Position numbers and translations under genes: made by a program
DNA from: Longimicrobiales bacterium
GTDB taxonomy: Bacteria > Gemmatimonadota > Gemmatimonadetes > Longimicrobiales > Gaopeijiaceae
Direction of reading: 5' to 3'
DNA: 64,000 bases
Assembly (NCBI GenBank): GCA_029245345.1
Contig: JAQWPM010000021.1
Location: 496,001 to 560,000 of the forward strand
Shown: one piece after another, positions 54,413 through 64,000 of the stretch
Numbering within the stretch: position 1 is the stretch's first letter
Layout: every line of letters starts with the position of its first letter
The notes under the pieces: generated by a model
The model's input: the letters and a program-made list of their open reading frames with translations, nothing else
Databases searched by the model: none
Told to the model about the DNA's origin: nothing

Positions 54413-55837
54413 ATGAATTCGAGCGATGCGAAGGTGGCCAAAGAGCCCATCGATCAGTCCATCGAACGAGTCGCTGCGGCGCTTCGTTCAGGAAATCTTT
54501 CCGCCGTCGAACTCGCGGAATCAGCCATCGCCAGTCACGGCCAACACGGACAACGGCTCCACGCCTACAGGGCTTTCGACAGCGAGTCGGCTCGCAGGGC
54601 GGCTCGCACCGCAGACGAGCGTCTCCAGCGAGGGGATGCTCCTCCGTTCTGCGGCATCCCAGTCTCGGTGAAGGATCTATACGGGGTAAGCGGCTTCGAC
54701 ACCTTCGCCGGAAGTGCCAGAGCACTTCCAGCGCCGTGGACCCAGGACGCGTGGCTCGTCGCACGGCTGCGTGAACAGGGCGCCGTCATCATGGGGAAGA
54801 CGCATACCGTCGAGTTTGCCTACGGCGCGATTGGGGCAAACCCGCACTGGGGTGCCCCTCGGAATCCCTGGGATGCAGATGTGCACCGTATCACCGGAGG
54901 CTCCTCGTCCGGAGCGGGGGTGAGTCTCTGGGAGGGATCAGCGCTTCTGGCGCTCGGATCCGACACAGGGGGTTCCATCCGAATCCCCGCCGCGATGACC
55001 GGCACCGTGGGTCACAAGATCACGCATGCCCGATGGAGCGTTGAAGGAGTCGTGCCCCTCAGCACCACGCTCGACACGGTTGGGGGACTGACCCGGACCG
55101 TCGAAGACGCCATCTATTTTTTCGGCTCACTCGATCCTGAATGGGGAGATCCACAGCAACTCCGGCTCCAACTCGCCACCCTCCCCGCTGCCGGGCTGCG
55201 TGTCGCGATGCCGACGTGTACGATCTGGGATGACTGTCAGACAGACATCGCTGACGTCCTTCACGGAGCGATCGGAAGGCTGGGGGCCGCCGGCTGGGGT
55301 GTCGGAGCGGTAGACGGCACACTCCTCGATGAGGCCCAACACCTCTATATGAACGGCGGGATCGCGGGCGCAGAGTGCATGGCTTTTCTGAAACGGGACC
55401 TGCCGGAGTGGATCGATATTCTGGACCCGATCGTGGGATCTCGCCTTGCCCATGCTCCCGAACTGGGCGGCGATCAGTACAGATCGTCTGTGGCACGACG
55501 GGCTCAACTCATGAGCCGAACCGAGGCTCTGTTTGCCGAGGCTGACGTCCTGGCCCTTCCTGCCTCCATGGCCACACCCGCGCCGCTGGCCGAACTGGCA
55601 GATCTTGACGCCTACGGCGCAGCCAACGTCACCGCGCTCCGGCCCACCTGCCCCGCGAGCATGCTCGGCCTGTGTGCGATCACGCTCCCAGTCGGGCTCG
55701 ATGCCTCAGGCATGCCAGTCGGGCTCCAGTTCGTCGCGCCACGGGGGCACGACGAGGCGCTTTTGGGTGCGGCTCTAGCCGTGGAACGCGCCTTGGGTCC
55801 GGCGACCGACTTGCTAGGAAGACCCCCGGGCCTATAG
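54413..55837 (+). CDS. Amidase-signature hydrolase
   Basis: 474 residues, no signal peptide. Ser-cisSer-Lys triad: Lys87 in GIPVSVKDLYGV, cis-Ser in GGSSSGAG (164-166) and Ser188 in DTGGSIRIPAA. The scaffold QDAWLVARLREQGAVIMGKTHTVEFAYGA and the C-terminal CAITLPVGLDASGMPVGLQFVAP are normal for the family. Probably a general carboxamidase; the residues of GatA specific to tRNA-dependent amidation are not obvious, and no gatB or gatC is adjacent. Start has only a weak ribosome-binding site. Confidence 0.9.
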   Translation: MNSSDAKVAKEPIDQSIERVAAALRSGNLSAVELAESAIASHGQHGQRLHAYRAFDSESARRAARTADERLQRGDAPPFCGIPVSVKDLYGVSGFDTFAGSARALPAPWTQDAWLVARLREQGAVIMGKTHTVEFAYGAIGANPHWGAPRNPWDADVHRITGGSSSGAGVSLWEGSALLALGSDTGGSIRIPAAMTGTVGHKITHARWSVEGVVPLSTTLDTVGGLTRTVEDAIYFFGSLDPEWGDPQQLRLQLATLPAAGLRVAMPTCTIWDDCQTDIADVLHGAIGRLGAAGWGVGAVDGTLLDEAQHLYMNGGIAGAECMAFLKRDLPEWIDILDPIVGSRLAHAPELGGDQYRSSVARRAQLMSRTEALFAEADVLALPASMATPAPLAELADLDAYGAANVTALRPTCPASMLGLCAITLPVGLDASGMPVGLQFVAPRGHDEALLGAALAVERALGPATDLLGRPPGL

Positions 55838-55992
55838 GGATCGCCGTAGCGGCTCACGGCTCCGGCGCGCGCCAAACCCTTGCGCCGGCCCGCGCGCGCG
55901 CGGAAGCTGATCCCCTGATATCACTGCGCCGATTCGGCGTGGCGCCCTCGTTCGCGCCCGCCACGGCTGAGCCAGACTCCCCTGGAGCCGAT

Positions 55993-58900
55993 ATGTCCCG
56001 TTTGTCCCGTTCCGGCCTGTTCTTATTGGTCGCCTGTGCGGCCATCTCCCTGCCCGCGCCAGCGACCGCCCAAGACGACACCCCAGCCGTAGACCCGGCC
56101 ACGTTCCAGTCGATGGCATGGCGTTCGATCGGCCCCTATCGAGGCGGCCGTTCCGTCGCGAGTACCGGAGTCGTGGGTGACCCCCAGATGTACTACATGG
56201 GCACCGTCGGCGGCGGCATTTGGAAGACCACCGACGCCGGCATCACATGGAACAACATCTCGGACGGGCAGCTGGGCACATCGTCTGTGGGTGCGATCGC
56301 GGTCTCCGAATCGGACCCGAACGTCATCTATGTGGGCATGGGTGAGCACGCCACACGTGGTGTGATGACCTCACACGGGGACGGCGTCTATAAGTCGACG
56401 GACGCGGGCCGCACCTGGACGAACATGGGACTGCCCCGCAGTCGGCACATCTCACGGGTGCGCATCCATCCCAAAAACCCGGACCTCGTCTACGTGGCAG
56501 TCCAGGGTGCAGCATACGGGGCCAACCCCGAGCGTGGGCTCTACCGCTCCGCGGACGGCGGCGAGACGTGGGAGCATATCCTCTACGTGAGTGAGGACGC
56601 AGGTGCGTCCGATCTTTCTATGGACATGAACAACCCACGCATTCTGTACGCAGCGTTTTGGCACAACCGACGCCTTCCCTGGCAGGTCCAGAGCGGCGGA
56701 GAAGGCAGCGGGCTCTGGAAGTCCACGGACGGGGGTGACAGCTGGAACAAGTTGGAGAACGGACTGCCCGACGAGATGGGCAAGACCTCCATCGACGTGT
56801 CTCGGGCTAACTCGGACCGTGTCTTCGCGATCGTCGAAGCCGATCCCGGTGGTGGCATCTTCCGCTCGGACGACGGTGGCGCCTCGTGGGAGCTCACGAG
56901 TGACAACTGGTCGGCCCGCGCACGTGCCTGGTACTACATCGAGATCTTCGCGGACCCTCAGGACGACGAGACGGTCTACGTCCTGAACGCGCCTATGATG
57001 AAGTCGATCGATGGTGGGCGGACGTTCAACCGGGTCCAGGTTCGCCACGGTGACACCCACGATCTGTGGATCAGCCCGGACGACAACGAGACAATGATCA
57101 ACGCGAACGACGGCGGAGCACACGTCTCGTTCAACGCTGGAGACAGCTGGTCGCAGCTCGACAACCAGCCGACCTCTCAGTTCTACCGGGTGAACGTGGA
57201 CAATCGCTTCCCCTACTACATCTACGGCGGCCAGCAGGACAACAGTTCCGTGGCGATCGCGAGCGCGGGGATTGGCGGTGTGACGTGGAAAGACTGGTAC
57301 GCCGTGGGCGGTTGTGAAAGCGCCTACACAGCCTTCGATCCGGACGACCCACGCTTCGTGTATGCCGGTTGTTACATGGGCATCATCAGCGAGTACGATC
57401 ACCAGACGAAGGGCCAGCGCGACGTAGGTGTCTACCCGGTGATGCCAGCTGCGCTTCAGGGCCGCGAGATGAAGTACCGCTACAACTGGAACGCGCCCAT
57501 CATCGCCTCTCCCCACAACTACGAGAGGATCTACCACGCCTCGAATCACCTGGTCGTCACCGAGGACCGCGGCATGACGTGGCAGGAGATTAGCCCGGAT
57601 CTCACACGTGACGACGACGAGCACCAGGGCTACGGTGGCGGACCGATCACAAATGAGGGTGCCGGGGGTGAGATCTATGGCACCATCTACTACGTGGTGG
57701 AATCGGAACACGAGGCCGGGACGATCTACACAGGCTCAGACGACGGTCTTATTCATGTCACACGCGATTCAGGGCAGACCTGGACCAACGTCACGCCGGG
57801 CGACCTCGAGGAAGGCCAGATCAACTCGATGGAGGTCTCACCTCACGATCCGGCGACCGTGTACGCCGCTTATACGCGCTACAAGTTCAACGACTTCACC
57901 CCACACTTGCTGGTCAGCAACGACTACGGCGAGAACTGGGAAGACCGGACCACCGGCATCCCGGAAGAGGCTTGGGTGAAAGTCGTCCGGGAGGACCCGG
58001 TCCGGCCCGGCCTGCTCTACATGGGTACCGAGACGGGGATCTTCGCTTCGTGGGACCAAGGCGAGAACTGGCAGCCCATGCAGCTGAACCTGCCCAACAC
58101 CCCCATAAACGACCTCATCGTGCAGCGTCGCGAGAACGATCTCGTAGCCGCGACATCGGGTCGATCGTTCTGGATCTTGGACGACCTCACCCCCATGCAG
58201 AACGCAACGAACGTTGAGGGAAGCGAGAGCTACCTGCTGCCCCCCCGCCATGCGTACCGGCTGGCCAGCGGTGGCTTTGGGGGCTTCGCTGAGAATGTGG
58301 GTCAGAATCCCCCGTCGGGCGCGATCGTACAGTACTACATGGCAGAAGAACCCGCGGAGGGTGACTCCGTAACCGTCGAAATCATGTCAACGGCGGGTGA
58401 GATCATCCGCACGTACTCGACACATCCAGATGAAGACGTCAGTCCTGGGGCGCAACCCATAACTGTGGAAGCCGGGCACAATCGTCTGGCTTGGAACCTG
58501 CGCCACGAGCAGATCCCCAACATCCCGGGCGCCTACGTCTTCGGTTCACTCGCCGGTCGGCGTGTCATTCCAGGCACGTACCAGGTGCGTCTGACCGCCG
58601 GTGACTTCACGCAGACGCAGTCTCTCGAGGTCCGTAAGGATCCACGTGTTGACGCGACAATGGCGGAGTACGTCGAGCAGGATCAGTTCGTAGCCCAAGT
58701 AGCGCGCGAACTGACCGACATCCATCACGCGGCCATCGACGTCAATGATGTGGACGACCAGGTCGAGACGCTCATGGGGCGCATCGAGGGCCGTGACGGA
58801 GCCGACGTGGTTGGGGAAGCAGCCGACGCGCTCATGGAAGAGCTCACCACCGTCGCGGATTCACTCTATCAGGCACGCGTGGTGGATGGGCAGACCGTGA

Positions 58901-59145
58901 TCAACTTCCCATCTCGTCTCAAGTTCCAATACGTCGTGCTCCACGGGAACGCCGAGGGCGCCGAGACCGGTGTGTCTCGCGGCTCGGAAGACGTACTGAG
59001 TGACCTGAGAGTCCGCTGGACTAGCCACGACGCCACGGTACGTCAGTTGCTCGGGCCTCGGCTGGATGAGTTCAACCGACTCCTCGCCGAGCACGGCTTC
59101 GGGGCGATCATCCGTCCACCGGAACGCAGAAGGACCATCAGCTGA
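55993..59145 (+). CDS. Secreted VPS10/sortilin-like beta-propeller protein
   Basis: 1050 residues from 55993, GGAG 5 nt upstream, Sec signal (RSGLFLLVACAAISLPAPATAQ). The first ~700 residues are a VPS10-like 10-bladed propeller: FQSMAWRSIGPYRGGRSVAS, GTVGGGIWKTTDAGITWNN, GVYKSTDAGRTWTNM and GLWKSTDGGDSWNK, with repeated Asp-box (SxDxGxTW) motifs. The C-terminal part (LTAGDFTQTQSLEVRKDPRV) is Ig-like and helical. Databases call such proteins glycosyl hydrolases, but the Asp-boxes are structural and the substrate is unknown. The continuous frame upstream to 55672 overlaps the amidase. Confidence 0.9.
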   Translation: MSRLSRSGLFLLVACAAISLPAPATAQDDTPAVDPATFQSMAWRSIGPYRGGRSVASTGVVGDPQMYYMGTVGGGIWKTTDAGITWNNISDGQLGTSSVGAIAVSESDPNVIYVGMGEHATRGVMTSHGDGVYKSTDAGRTWTNMGLPRSRHISRVRIHPKNPDLVYVAVQGAAYGANPERGLYRSADGGETWEHILYVSEDAGASDLSMDMNNPRILYAAFWHNRRLPWQVQSGGEGSGLWKSTDGGDSWNKLENGLPDEMGKTSIDVSRANSDRVFAIVEADPGGGIFRSDDGGASWELTSDNWSARARAWYYIEIFADPQDDETVYVLNAPMMKSIDGGRTFNRVQVRHGDTHDLWISPDDNETMINANDGGAHVSFNAGDSWSQLDNQPTSQFYRVNVDNRFPYYIYGGQQDNSSVAIASAGIGGVTWKDWYAVGGCESAYTAFDPDDPRFVYAGCYMGIISEYDHQTKGQRDVGVYPVMPAALQGREMKYRYNWNAPIIASPHNYERIYHASNHLVVTEDRGMTWQEISPDLTRDDDEHQGYGGGPITNEGAGGEIYGTIYYVVESEHEAGTIYTGSDDGLIHVTRDSGQTWTNVTPGDLEEGQINSMEVSPHDPATVYAAYTRYKFNDFTPHLLVSNDYGENWEDRTTGIPEEAWVKVVREDPVRPGLLYMGTETGIFASWDQGENWQPMQLNLPNTPINDLIVQRRENDLVAATSGRSFWILDDLTPMQNATNVEGSESYLLPPRHAYRLASGGFGGFAENVGQNPPSGAIVQYYMAEEPAEGDSVTVEIMSTAGEIIRTYSTHPDEDVSPGAQPITVEAGHNRLAWNLRHEQIPNIPGAYVFGSLAGRRVIPGTYQVRLTAGDFTQTQSLEVRKDPRVDATMAEYVEQDQFVAQVARELTDIHHAAIDVNDVDDQVETLMGRIEGRDGADVVGEAADALMEELTTVADSLYQARVVDGQTVINFPSRLKFQYVVLHGNAEGAETGVSRGSEDVLSDLRVRWTSHDATVRQLLGPRLDEFNRLLAEHGFGAIIRPPERRRTIS

Positions 59146-59915: not shown

Positions 59916-61460
59916 ATGCACACGCGTACGCGCTTAGTCCGGACCGCAGCAGCAACCTGTCTCATGTTGGTCGGCACCCTGGCTCCAACGCCCGGACCGA
60001 TTGGGGCGGAAGCGGTGGAGGCCCAAGAAGTCTACGACGTCGTACTGATGGGCGGCCGCGTCATGGACCCAGAGACGGGCCTCGATGCAATTCGTAACGT
60101 CGGCATTCGCGGGCAGACCATCGTCTCGATCAGTGAAGGGGCGCTGCGAGGCACCACCGTCATCGATGCGACGGGCCTCGTCGTGGCTCCGGGCTTCATC
60201 GACATGCACGCGCACGGGCAGACGGTGCGGGCCAACGAGTTCCAGGCCATGGACGGCGTGACCACCGCCCTCGAATTGGAGGGTGGCGTCCCCTCCATGA
60301 CGGACTTCCTGGATCCCCGTCGCGGAGGGTCAGTCCTGAACTTCGGAGCGAGCGTATCGCACGGTTCTGCGAGGATCTCGGTCATGCCCGACTTCGCGGA
60401 CCAGTACCGGCAGGTGAGGGACATTGTAGACGCCGCCGGGACAAGAGACCTGACGACGGAAGAGAACGCTCAGATCATGGAGCTCATTGGCGCGGCCGCA
60501 TATGAGCCTCTCCAAAAAGAGCAGTACGGGGCGCTCCGGGAGCGGCTGCAGTCGGAGATAACGGCGGGCGGGCTCGGAATCGGTATGCCACACCAGTACT
60601 ACCCGGGTGCCAACCGCGACGAGATCTACCGGGTCATGGAATTCGCGGGTGACAACGCGATCACGATCTACACTCATGTACGGTCCATGGGCATTGACCC
60701 GATCCAAGAAGTCATCGCGAACTCGGTCGCCACACAGGCTCCGCTGCACATCGTGCATCTCAACAGTTCGAGTCTATGGGACATCGAAACCAATCTCGAC
60801 CTCATCCGCGGTGCACGGAGGGCCGGGGTGAATGTCACGACCGAGGCGTACCCCTATACGGCGGCCTCTACCTCAATCGAGTCCGCCATCTTCGATGAAG
60901 GTTGGCAGGAGCGGCTCCAGATCTCTTACGGTGACCTGCAGTGGCAGGAAACCGGAGAGCGACTGACCGAAGCGACCTTCAACGAATACCGTGAACGAGG
61001 CGGGGTCATCATTATCCACATTATGAAGCCCGAGTGGATCACCGCCGCGATGTCGGACCCGGCGGTAATGGTTGCTTCAGACGGAATGCCTTACGACCCA
61101 GGCGCGCATCCAAGAAGCGCCGGCACCTTCGCGCGCTTCTTGGGCCGGTACGTCCGGGAAGAAGGGATTTCGAGCCTCATGGAAGGACTGAGGAAGATCA
61201 CGATCATGCCCGCTCAGCGGCTTGGCGCGGTCTCCGCTCAAATGGCTCGGAAGGGCCGCATCCAGATCGGCAGCGACGCGGACGTCACCATCTTCGATCC
61301 TTCGAAGATCATCGATACGGCAACCTTCGAGGGCACACTCTCATACTCGGAAGGCGTGCAGTTCGTGCTCGTGAACGGCGAATTCGTGGTAAAAGACGGC
61401 GCCCTCGTTGATGGCGCACGGCCAGGCCGGGCGATCGTGGGTACCCGCGTGGTCTTCTAG
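59916..61460 (+). CDS. Secreted D-aminoacylase-like amidohydrolase
   Basis: 514 residues; Sec signal MHTRTRLVRTAAATCLMLVG. N-acyl-D-amino-acid deacylase-type amidohydrolase: FIDMHAHGQT (His98, His100), TALELEGGV (usual Cys/Glu position), GGLGIGMPHQYYPGA, IYTHVRSMG, HIVHLNSS and catalytic Asp in VMVASDGMPYDPGAHPRSAGTFARFLG. The C-terminal GSDADVTIFDPSKIIDTA is the family's end. It probably releases amino acids from N-acyl or D-amino-acid substrates outside the cytoplasm. Gap of 73 nt from the sugar transferase. Confidence 0.9.
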   Translation: MHTRTRLVRTAAATCLMLVGTLAPTPGPIGAEAVEAQEVYDVVLMGGRVMDPETGLDAIRNVGIRGQTIVSISEGALRGTTVIDATGLVVAPGFIDMHAHGQTVRANEFQAMDGVTTALELEGGVPSMTDFLDPRRGGSVLNFGASVSHGSARISVMPDFADQYRQVRDIVDAAGTRDLTTEENAQIMELIGAAAYEPLQKEQYGALRERLQSEITAGGLGIGMPHQYYPGANRDEIYRVMEFAGDNAITIYTHVRSMGIDPIQEVIANSVATQAPLHIVHLNSSSLWDIETNLDLIRGARRAGVNVTTEAYPYTAASTSIESAIFDEGWQERLQISYGDLQWQETGERLTEATFNEYRERGGVIIIHIMKPEWITAAMSDPAVMVASDGMPYDPGAHPRSAGTFARFLGRYVREEGISSLMEGLRKITIMPAQRLGAVSAQMARKGRIQIGSDADVTIFDPSKIIDTATFEGTLSYSEGVQFVLVNGEFVVKDGALVDGARPGRAIVGTRVVF

Positions 61461-61478: not shown

Positions 61479-63275
61479 CTACCGCCCGGACAACTGCTCC
61501 CGGATCGCCGCGGCCGTGCGCTCCGCGCGAGCCTGTGAAATTTCTCGTCCGAGCTGGAGCGACTGAGCGAGATCCGAAATGTCGAAGCCGTCAATCGAGG
61601 CGTGGCCGTAGCGGACTCGGTCCCTCCACCTCACAGACTCGGGATCGGACGCCATCATGTTGAGTGTGATGGTCGGGTTGTCGTGCAACCCCTCTGTACC
61701 CTCTTGGTCCTCTCTCATGAGGCCCTTCATGACGAGAACGTTCTTGGCCGGATCGGGGCTCGCCGGGTAGTACTCCCCCGCGTGGATCGCCCGGGCTTCG
61801 CCCGCCCATTCGGCATCGAGGCGCTCGGCAACCGCGATCATACCTCGGCGGTTCCCACCGGAGTCCCCAATGAACACGATGCTCTCGAATCCATGTGTCT
61901 TGAGAGACATCGCGATGTCTGTGAGGAGCATTTGGAACGTCTCCTGTCGGAGGCTGATCGTACCCGGGTCATCGAGCGTTTCCGGATCTCCCTCCGGGAC
62001 CCACTTCACGATGGGTGCGCACAACGCGTCGCCGAGCTCACGAGCGAGCGATTCGCAGTTGGCGTCCAGCACATAGTTGTGTTTTCCGGTCGTGAGCCAA
62101 GGACCGTTCTCCTCGACTCCGCCGGTCGCGACGATCGCTGTCCGCTTCCCAGCCGCGAGGGCATCCCGCACGTCCATCCACGTCAGTTCTTCCAGCCATA
62201 CGGACTGCGCTTCTGGGAGTGGGTTCGGCGTGTCCGAACAGTTGTACGTGTTCGCACGACAGTCGCCTCCGCCCATCGTACGAGGGTCAGGGGCTGGACG
62301 CTCCCCACGGCCACCGCCACCACCGGTACGTGGCGGCTGAGGGGGCTCGGGTAACGTCCCACCGTTGCTGATGGCGGACTGGATCGCCTCCACGGCGTTC
62401 GTCGCGCGGAACTCGACCACAGCCCTGCCCCATTCGAGGGTCTGCACGCGGTTGGAAAGGTCGACGCCGTCGATCGTGGCCAGTCCGGCATCGACTCGCT
62501 CCTGCCATCGAATCGAAGATGGGTCATCCACGAACATGTTGACCGCGATATCCGGCTCGTCGTGCAAGCCATCCCGCTCACCCCATGGCATGAGGTTCTC
62601 TTCGAAGAAGTTCCTCATAGCCGTGTTGTCGTAGTACTCACCAATGTGAGCCACGACCGGACTCCCGCCCCACGCAGCAGTCAGCCGCTCCGCGACAGCT
62701 CGCTGGTGACCCTGATTCGATCCCGAGTCACCGATGAACAGGATGTTCTCGAAGCCGTGGGCTTTGTATGAAGTCGCGATATCGGTGAGAACCGCCTGGA
62801 ACGTCTCACCACTCGCGCTGATCGTACCCGGACTCAGCATGTGACTCGACGGGGGATCAATGTTCCCCTCGGGCACGTAAGGCAGAACCGGGGCGCAAAG
62901 GGCATTCCCCAGCTTTCGGGCAATCGCCTCACAGTTGGCGGTGAGCACATAGTTGTGCTTGCCCAAGACGAGCCAGGGACCGTTGGGCTCTATGCCACCG
63001 GTCGAGATGATGACCGTGGTCTTCCCTGCATCGAGGGCATCCCGAACGTCCATCCACGTCATCTCTTCTGTCCAGATGGACGTGTTGGGTGGAAGCGGGT
63101 TCGGGGTGTCTTTGCAGTTGTAGACGCTGCCCTCATTCTCAACCGGATTCAACGGATTCAAGGGTTGGGGGCCACACGAACGCCCCTGAGCGGCCGCCGG
63201 GGAAGCGGTCAGCGCGAGTCCGGCGAGCATACCGGCAAACACAACAGTCGAGGCATGGAGCTTCTTCAAGGTCAT
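61479..63275 (-). CDS. Secreted protein with two tandem creatininase-like domains
   Basis: 598 residues; Sec signal (STVVFAGMLAGLALTASPAAAQ). Two creatininase-fold copies: about 67-300 and 357-595, each preceded by the same Cys-containing segment YNCKDTPNPLP / YNCSDTPNPLP, and joined by a Pro/Gly/Arg linker (310-332). The metal signature normally GxxExHGPHLPLGTD is here TGGIEPNGPWLVLGKHN (Glu96, Asn98, His107) and TGGVEENGPWLTTGKHN (Glu388, Asn390, His399): both copies share the same changes, so they form a distinct subfamily. Substrate unknown; simple creatininase activity cannot be assumed. Confidence 0.85.
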   Translation of the reverse strand: MTLKKLHASTVVFAGMLAGLALTASPAAAQGRSCGPQPLNPLNPVENEGSVYNCKDTPNPLPPNTSIWTEEMTWMDVRDALDAGKTTVIISTGGIEPNGPWLVLGKHNYVLTANCEAIARKLGNALCAPVLPYVPEGNIDPPSSHMLSPGTISASGETFQAVLTDIATSYKAHGFENILFIGDSGSNQGHQRAVAERLTAAWGGSPVVAHIGEYYDNTAMRNFFEENLMPWGERDGLHDEPDIAVNMFVDDPSSIRWQERVDAGLATIDGVDLSNRVQTLEWGRAVVEFRATNAVEAIQSAISNGGTLPEPPQPPRTGGGGGRGERPAPDPRTMGGGDCRANTYNCSDTPNPLPEAQSVWLEELTWMDVRDALAAGKRTAIVATGGVEENGPWLTTGKHNYVLDANCESLARELGDALCAPIVKWVPEGDPETLDDPGTISLRQETFQMLLTDIAMSLKTHGFESIVFIGDSGGNRRGMIAVAERLDAEWAGEARAIHAGEYYPASPDPAKNVLVMKGLMREDQEGTEGLHDNPTITLNMMASDPESVRWRDRVRYGHASIDGFDISDLAQSLQLGREISQARAERTAAAIREQLSGR

Positions 63276-63877: not shown

Positions 63878-63979
63878 CTACTTGTCGGGCCCAGTCAGGA
63901 TCTTGTAGTAGCACCATCCTGCGAGTCCCCACACAAAGCTCAGCGAGCCAACCAGTAGAATCCATCCGCCGATCGTCAT
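63878..63979 (-). CDS. 33-residue single-pass membrane protein
   Basis: The protein is MTIGGWILLVGSLSFVWGL, then AGWCYYKILTGPDK: one TM segment with a short basic/Pro tail. A perfect Shine-Dalgarno (GGAGGT at 63985-63990) lies 5 nt upstream. Many Na+-dependent transporters and cytochrome oxidases have such micro-subunits, but no partner is visible; the upstream gene lies outside the window, so it may be the last gene of an operon. Confidence 0.72.
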   Translation of the reverse strand: MTIGGWILLVGSLSFVWGLAGWCYYKILTGPDK

Positions 63980-63984
63980 GATGC

Positions 63985-63990
63985 ACCTCC
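63985..63990 (-). promoter_or_regulatory. Shine-Dalgarno of the 33-residue membrane protein
   Basis: GGAGGT on the minus strand, 5 nt before the ATG at 63979. It is the main evidence that the very short ORF is a gene. Confidence 0.75.
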
Positions 63991-64000
63991 GCTGCTGACA

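Follow-up and report, generated by a model that had tools for sequence, protein, structure and literature searches.

A single gene in the window analysed here (the whole stretch of 64,000 nucleotides from a Longimicrobiales bacterium, contig JAQWPM010000021.1, positions 496,001 to 560,000) encodes two creatininase-fold domains in one chain, and both have had their metal site rewritten in the same way. Judged from sequence, the altered motif is the mark of a broad, mostly exported-looking clade of Gemmatimonadota, Acidobacteriota and Pseudomonadota, the majority of whose members are single-domain proteins. We tentatively understand the tandem protein as a periplasmic C-N hydrolase of creatininase fold composed of two joined, conserved domains, each of which would hold at most one metal and employ a lysine in place of the second, a reading to which we give somewhat less than an even chance.

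The reading frame (61479..63275) lies on the minus strand, no strand having been named in the sequence-only reading of the same DNA, and extends from an ATG start over 598 amino acids to a stop codon. Residues 1-30 (63186..63275) resemble a signal peptide by eye, with a lysine-rich start, a hydrophobic core and ASPAAAQ, and the protein is probably exported to the periplasm. The segments YNCKDTPNPLP (residues 52-62) and YNCSDTPNPLP (residues 344-354) stand ahead of domain 1 (residues 66-303; 62367..63080) and domain 2 (residues 358-598; 61482..62204), respectively, and a Pro/Gly-rich linker (residues 308-339; 62259..62354) lies between the domains, all on the minus strand. Searched separately, the two halves score 91.0 and 95.7 bits against PF02633 for a cut-off of 31.3 bits, which bears out the earlier proposal of a tandem of creatininase-like domains. 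Structure prediction, one of the checks suggested with that proposal, returned the creatininase fold in both halves. Domain 1, taken from the full-length model (residues 69-303), superimposes on creatininases with Z 15.2 (3a6e; rmsd 4.0, 210 aligned), and domain 2 on 3a6k with Z 17.4 (rmsd 4.1, 219 aligned), the first unrelated row being at 9.6. By profile score and by fold, both halves are members of PF02633. The AlphaFold2 model of the full chain has pLDDT 71.9 and pTM 0.48, with low confidence at the N-terminus and the linker (pLDDT below 50 at 315-363) and likewise below 50 in the site loops 97-103 and 138-150; domain 2 modelled alone reaches pLDDT 86.4 and pTM 0.86. Structural rows for dihydroxyacid dehydratase and for cutinase/esterase (Z 7-9.6) were discounted as evidence of kinship.

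Creatininase uses what we take to be the residues E34, H36, D45, H120 and E122 as ligands of its two metals, H36 and a family glutamate presumably being private to the second one; PDB titles for the enzyme name Mn, Zn-Zn and Mn-Zn forms, and an E122Q mutant has been studied. HMMER alignment to the P. putida enzyme (3a6h/1j2t) equates E34 with E96 of domain 1, H36 with N98, position 44 with K106, D45 with H107, position 119 with D183, H120 with S184, E122 with S186 and H178 with H238, while the family Glu183 is Ile243. The first site motif of domain 1 reads EPNGPWLVLGKHN at residues 96-108 (E96, N98, K106 and H107 within 62955..62990), the second comprises D183, S184 and G185 (62721..62729), and the invariant H238 is encoded at 62562..62564. 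The corresponding elements of domain 2, also read from the minus strand, are EENGPWLTTGKHN at residues 388-400 (E388, N390, K398 and H399 within 62079..62114), D471, S472 and G473 (61857..61865), and H531, the H178 equivalent (61683..61685); the site is that of domain 1, save that E122 has become Gly. Four of the five creatininase ligands are thus substituted in both halves, with E34 alone retained, and neither half carries the complete dinuclear set. The residue numbers given previously for the suspected metal positions (Glu96/Asn98/His107 and Glu388/Asn390/His399) are exact, and the replacement of HG by NG and of TD by KH occurs in both halves as had been described. The alteration is more extensive than those two motifs, however, since H120 and Glu183 are lost as well, and the conversion of the second metal motif HGG(N) into GDSG(S/G)N in both halves had been overlooked. 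E-NG...GKHN together with DSG is kept in all 28 first and all 29 second halves among non-redundant tandem homologues, site conservation being equal in the two, and the motif is therefore not a product of chance. Among solved structures, the matches to the clade profile were canonical creatininase-type entries and one unrelated weak match, none with the altered motif. As a peculiarity of the window protein, the SGHM loop (residues 427-440), which is kept in the other tandem second halves compared, is gone from domain 2, the rest of whose site is intact. H146 of the SGHM loop was considered as a substitute ligand and set aside, given SGAM or SGSM in the Gammaproteobacterial members and the loss of the loop from the window's own domain 2.

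The rules governing the site were derived from 215 domain matches, reduced to 131 distinct ones of sufficient length, to 130 after containment and to 125 after removal of near-duplicates at 98%; L102, whose N-terminal motif is absent, was excluded. The first tree set held 103 domains (89 altered, 14 canonical), and a second, unthinned set held 34, mostly from weak-matching genomes (24 altered, with H45 as their defining feature, and 10 canonical, 4 of these obtained through an IolN search); because all rows were found via the window protein, alignment A2 or the PF02633 and IolN profiles, both counts lean towards the altered clade. In the first set, E34, H45, H178 and Y215 are each present in 89/89 altered domains and position 119 is acidic in all of them (88 D, 1 E). 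The second set has E34 and H45 in 24/24, an acid at 119 in 24/24 (21 D, 3 E) and H178 in the 23 domains that cover it, row L170 ending before that residue; Y215, found in 20 of 23 covered domains there, is consequently not a strict rule. Position 36 is variable (N 76, K 7, S 4, R 2 in the first set; N 11, R 10, K 1, S 1, G 1 in the second), as is position 183, occupied by eight different residues in the first set. At position 120, the first set has S in 82 and H in 7 altered domains and the second has H in 16 of 24, giving His in 23/113 overall, and the E213 equivalent is E or D in 82 of the 88 altered rows with a residue there. A single basic residue is found at 36 or at 44, never at both, in 88/89 and 24/24 altered domains (112/113), the exception L119 having none and sitting on a long branch. 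Canonical domains of the first set retain H36, H120 and E183 in 14/14 each, and among all 24 canonical domains (14 + 10) neither an acidic residue 119 nor a base at either 36 or 44 occurs (0/24 each). Both halves of the window protein carry the full set of altered-clade residues, E96/H107/D183/H238/K106 and E388/H399/D471/H531/K398. Position 36 may be N, K, S, R or G, in contrast to the constancy of E34, H45, H178 and an acidic residue 119, and Asn98 and Asn390, which the sequence-only reading had among its metal positions, are therefore poor candidates for ligands.

Two histidines and two carboxylates, as provided by the fixed positions 34, 45, 119 and 178, are enough for one metal, and a positive charge newly placed next to the site would be in keeping with a role as stand-in for the charge of a lost metal; on these grounds the one-metal hydrolase is favoured. 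The altered site has lost His36 and the family Glu, the ligands presumably private to the second metal; His replaces Asp45, position 119 has become acidic, and position 36 or 44 carries Lys or Arg. According to this proposal, at most one metal would be held by E96/H107/D183/H238 in domain 1 and by E388/H399/D471/H531 in domain 2, with Lys106 and Lys398 supplying electrostatically what the second metal did, and the reaction would be hydrolysis of a C-N bond in an amide or cyclic amide. A new metal set, anticipated previously, would be a fair inference, with the qualification that residue 119 may be turned outwards and that position 120, S or H across the clade, might be a source of a ligand. 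Creatininase is a hexamer of single domains, and the tandem could accordingly represent a ready-made dimer unit.

The same loss of four of five creatininase ligands, taken together with a gene context that indicates neither substrate nor pathway, would suit a non-catalytic exported pseudoenzyme, a binder of some small molecule or metal that is maintained for its binding or structural role. We regard this as unlikely: E34, H45 and an acidic residue 119 occur without exception in the altered domains (113/113) and in both tandem halves, whereas a pure binder is expected to tolerate more change. A dinuclear centre that survives through a changed ligand set (such as E34, H45, D119, H120/S120, H178 and E213) and supports creatininase-like chemistry could draw on the early-splitting members, which keep H120 along with E34, H45, D119 and H178, enough for more than one metal, and on the predominantly acidic character of position 213. 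H36 and E183 are gone from the clade, however, H120 is gone from the window's part of it, and the Lys or Arg that nearly always stands beside the site disfavours two cations, making such a centre quite improbable.

The GDSG element invites a different mechanism, namely a metal-free serine hydrolase on the creatininase scaffold in which S184/S472 would be the nucleophile, H107 the base and either E96 or D183 the acid. GDSG is present in 57/57 tandem halves, and its loop, GDSGG in domain 2, which fits GxSxG, and GDSGS in domain 1, is placed between strand and helix in the models, with a predicted strand at 177-182 and a helix from 186 in domain 1. Distant, generic matches to cutinases and esterases at Z 7-9 point the same way, but values below 10 may reflect a common arrangement only. 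The serine is replaced by His in 7/89 and 16/24 altered domains, none of which departs from H45 or from an acidic residue 119. With His at 120 in 23/113 altered domains, the serine is not a catalytic group shared by the clade, and a clade-wide GDSGG triad, which had been the initial idea, was demoted for this reason. The serine mechanism is therefore considered a minor contender of low probability, though the GDSGG serine may have turned catalytic in the window's own subclade.

Phylogenetic trees, built with the motif columns omitted and supported by SH-aLRT values, clarify the order of the changes. Of the 57 tandem rows, thinning left 36 in the first tree (103 rows) and 18 in the second (119 rows), and a single branch splits altered from canonical domains in both (96*, and 92 unstarred, respectively). 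All tandem halves form one clade (95*), within which the second halves are a clade of their own (100*), and they nest inside single-domain proteins that already bear the motif, the nearest being Gemmatimonadota L013/L014 (96*) and Acidobacteria L015 (99*). From this nesting it follows that duplication and fusion occurred once in the window's lineage and after the motif change, as the sequence-only reading had supposed. The first split within the altered clade in the second tree separates members with H120 in 16/16 (support 86); H36 and D45 were thus altered before H120S arose, the latter in a single step or several. The basic residue has moved between 36 and 44 in three class changes on the tree, one of which is the row with none, and the swap rests on few independent events. 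A separate fusion occurs in Acidobacteria (L115, G150:C129, minus strand): a 924-residue open frame with a signal-like start and a Gln/Gly linker joins an EKG/EHH-type to an ENG/KHN-type domain, in a host genome that has eleven matches to alignment A2. The same two types, KG and NG, are adjacent genes in the window's genome. That fusion has happened twice independently suggests that domains of this kind may operate as pairs. As to the clade in its entirety, it is possible, if doubtful, that a two-metal centre became a one-metal or metal-free one through exchange of Asp/His for His/Asp and recruitment of Lys/Arg, at either position, for the metal, with fusion twice in separate phyla.

The distribution of these proteins extends well beyond the tandem form. 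When 84,980 species genomes were searched with the tandem as query, 19 loci emerged, two of them full-length tandems in Gemmatimonadota records (62% and 65%) and the others relatives from Gemmatimonadota, Acidobacteriota and Gammaproteobacteria that are mostly single-domain. Matches at 1e-20 or better occur in 70 of 146 relatives, with the window's genome counted among them, and in 30 of the 70 they span both halves; all 30 are the genome itself or belong to the same genus or family. Genome G065, too, has both halves within one 716-residue frame. Alignment A2 finds a match of 1e-30 or better in 119 of the 298 genomes sampled from the phylum. This count is slightly too high, for 6 of 26 inspected genomes, mostly weak ones, yielded nothing but canonical domains in the matches retrieved. 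The conserved subfamily that had been claimed does exist, but it is far wider than the tandem, consists mostly of single-domain proteins and includes plasmid relatives annotated 'creatininase family protein'. Nine open reading frames of the window's genome account for its ten PF02633 matches: six canonical ones, the tandem and an adjacent altered gene pair on contig 19. In that pair (L084, G000:C19, 6825-8475, minus), single-domain genes of NG/KHN and KG/EHK type overlap at their ends, and PSD/DUF1592-type, DUF1552-type and ankyrin genes, grouped by similarity to annotated L070 genes, lie beside it. No description of the altered clade was found in open-licence full-text literature, and it is broad and apparently uncharacterised. 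Its significance is seen partly in annotation, for proteins labelled 'creatininase family protein', as on Burkholderia and Paraburkholderia plasmids, are without residues thought essential to the family chemistry. If the rewiring is true, the clade would moreover offer a natural series of a two-metal hydrolase losing a metal, with living intermediates in which H36/D45 changed first and H120 later, and the single-domain relatives and the tandem would be material for testing lysine as a substitute for a catalytic metal.

The 3' end of a Na+:neurotransmitter-symporter-family gene (63979..64000, minus; it runs off the window and corresponds to L083:11980-13587, PF00209 173.3 bits) is found about 700 bases ahead of the tandem start on the same strand, and beyond it, in the opposite orientation, lies an M28 peptidase gene of glutamate-carboxypeptidase-like type with PA and transferrin-receptor-like (TFR_dimer) domains; the two genes together fall within L083 11980-16048. 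On the other side, an exported-looking amidohydrolase (Amidohydro_3; 59916..61460, plus) converges with the tandem gene. Further along the window, an amidase gene (54413-55837) overlaps at its 3' end with a long frame (55672-59145) for a repeat-rich, beta-propeller-like exported protein, sortilin/BNR-like by eye, whose group (cluster c1) recurs near the tandem in several relatives. In G001, G020 and G042, as in the window's genome, the symporter (c7), on the tandem's own strand, and the M28 gene accompany the tandem; the symporter was not seen beside it in the other relatives examined (20 relatives' regions plus the window's). The PSD/DUF1552/ankyrin group that flanks the contig 19 pair also lies close to the tandem in G024, G051 and G039, and its PSD member alone does so in G004. 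The gene calls in these regions come from greedy selection of the longest ORFs, a procedure prone to false antisense frames in GC-rich DNA; it left the tandem itself unmarked in six regions out of the 20 from relatives (L073, L074, L078, L080, L081 and L082), so that absent neighbours mean little. Breakdown of an amide or peptide in the periplasm coupled to uptake of the product would fit, with a context too variable for naming the substrate: across the 20 relatives' tandem regions and the window's own, no substrate or pathway is indicated, and the earlier expectation of a new substrate finds no support in a gene context so poorly conserved.

Comparison with characterised and annotated members of the family places the window protein apart from each. 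With P. putida creatininase (EC 3.5.2.10; 1j2t/3a6*, TIGR04448) it shares the fold and the residues E34, G37 and H178, and it differs in H36N, D45H, H120S, E122S/G and E183I as well as in its export-like N-terminus and two domains per chain. The best NCBIfam matches are creatininase, MftE and IolN, as would be expected of an ordinary enzyme of one of these kinds with chance motif variation. Yet the whole protein misses all three equivalog cut-offs (creatininase TIGR04448, 75.1 against 235 bits; MftE TIGR03964, 65.4 against 172; IolN NF041098, 66.2 against 245), and the export-like start and the incomplete ligand set speak further against this explanation, which is very improbable. MftE, which has the PF02633 domain in common with the window protein, is described in an excerpt of PMC10885120 as the mycofactocin peptidase, a creatininase homologue that cleaves a peptide; no mycofactocin genes occur among the annotated neighbours of the tandem. 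IolN, the 3-dehydro-scyllo-inosose hydrolase, is likewise a PF02633 superfamily member, and its cut-off is reached in 0/119 genomes of the class. The plasmid relatives from Burkholderia, Paraburkholderia and Rhizobium (L060, L061, L062 and L139) belong to the same clade and resemble the tandem in being exported-looking and in having E-SG...GKHN and D119, but they keep H120 and HAG..D and are single-domain. A YncE-like beta-propeller gene stands directly 3' of the altered gene in L062 and L139, a same-sized 'hypothetical protein' takes that place in L060, and heavy-metal genes are near the altered gene in L060 and L062. As for BrbF of Sinorhizobium meliloti (SMc02977), an excerpt of PMC9478397 describes a protein annotated as creatinine amidohydrolase that is actually a formamide hydrolase with a role in the riboflavin pathway, a case which illustrates how widely the substrates of the creatininase family differ.
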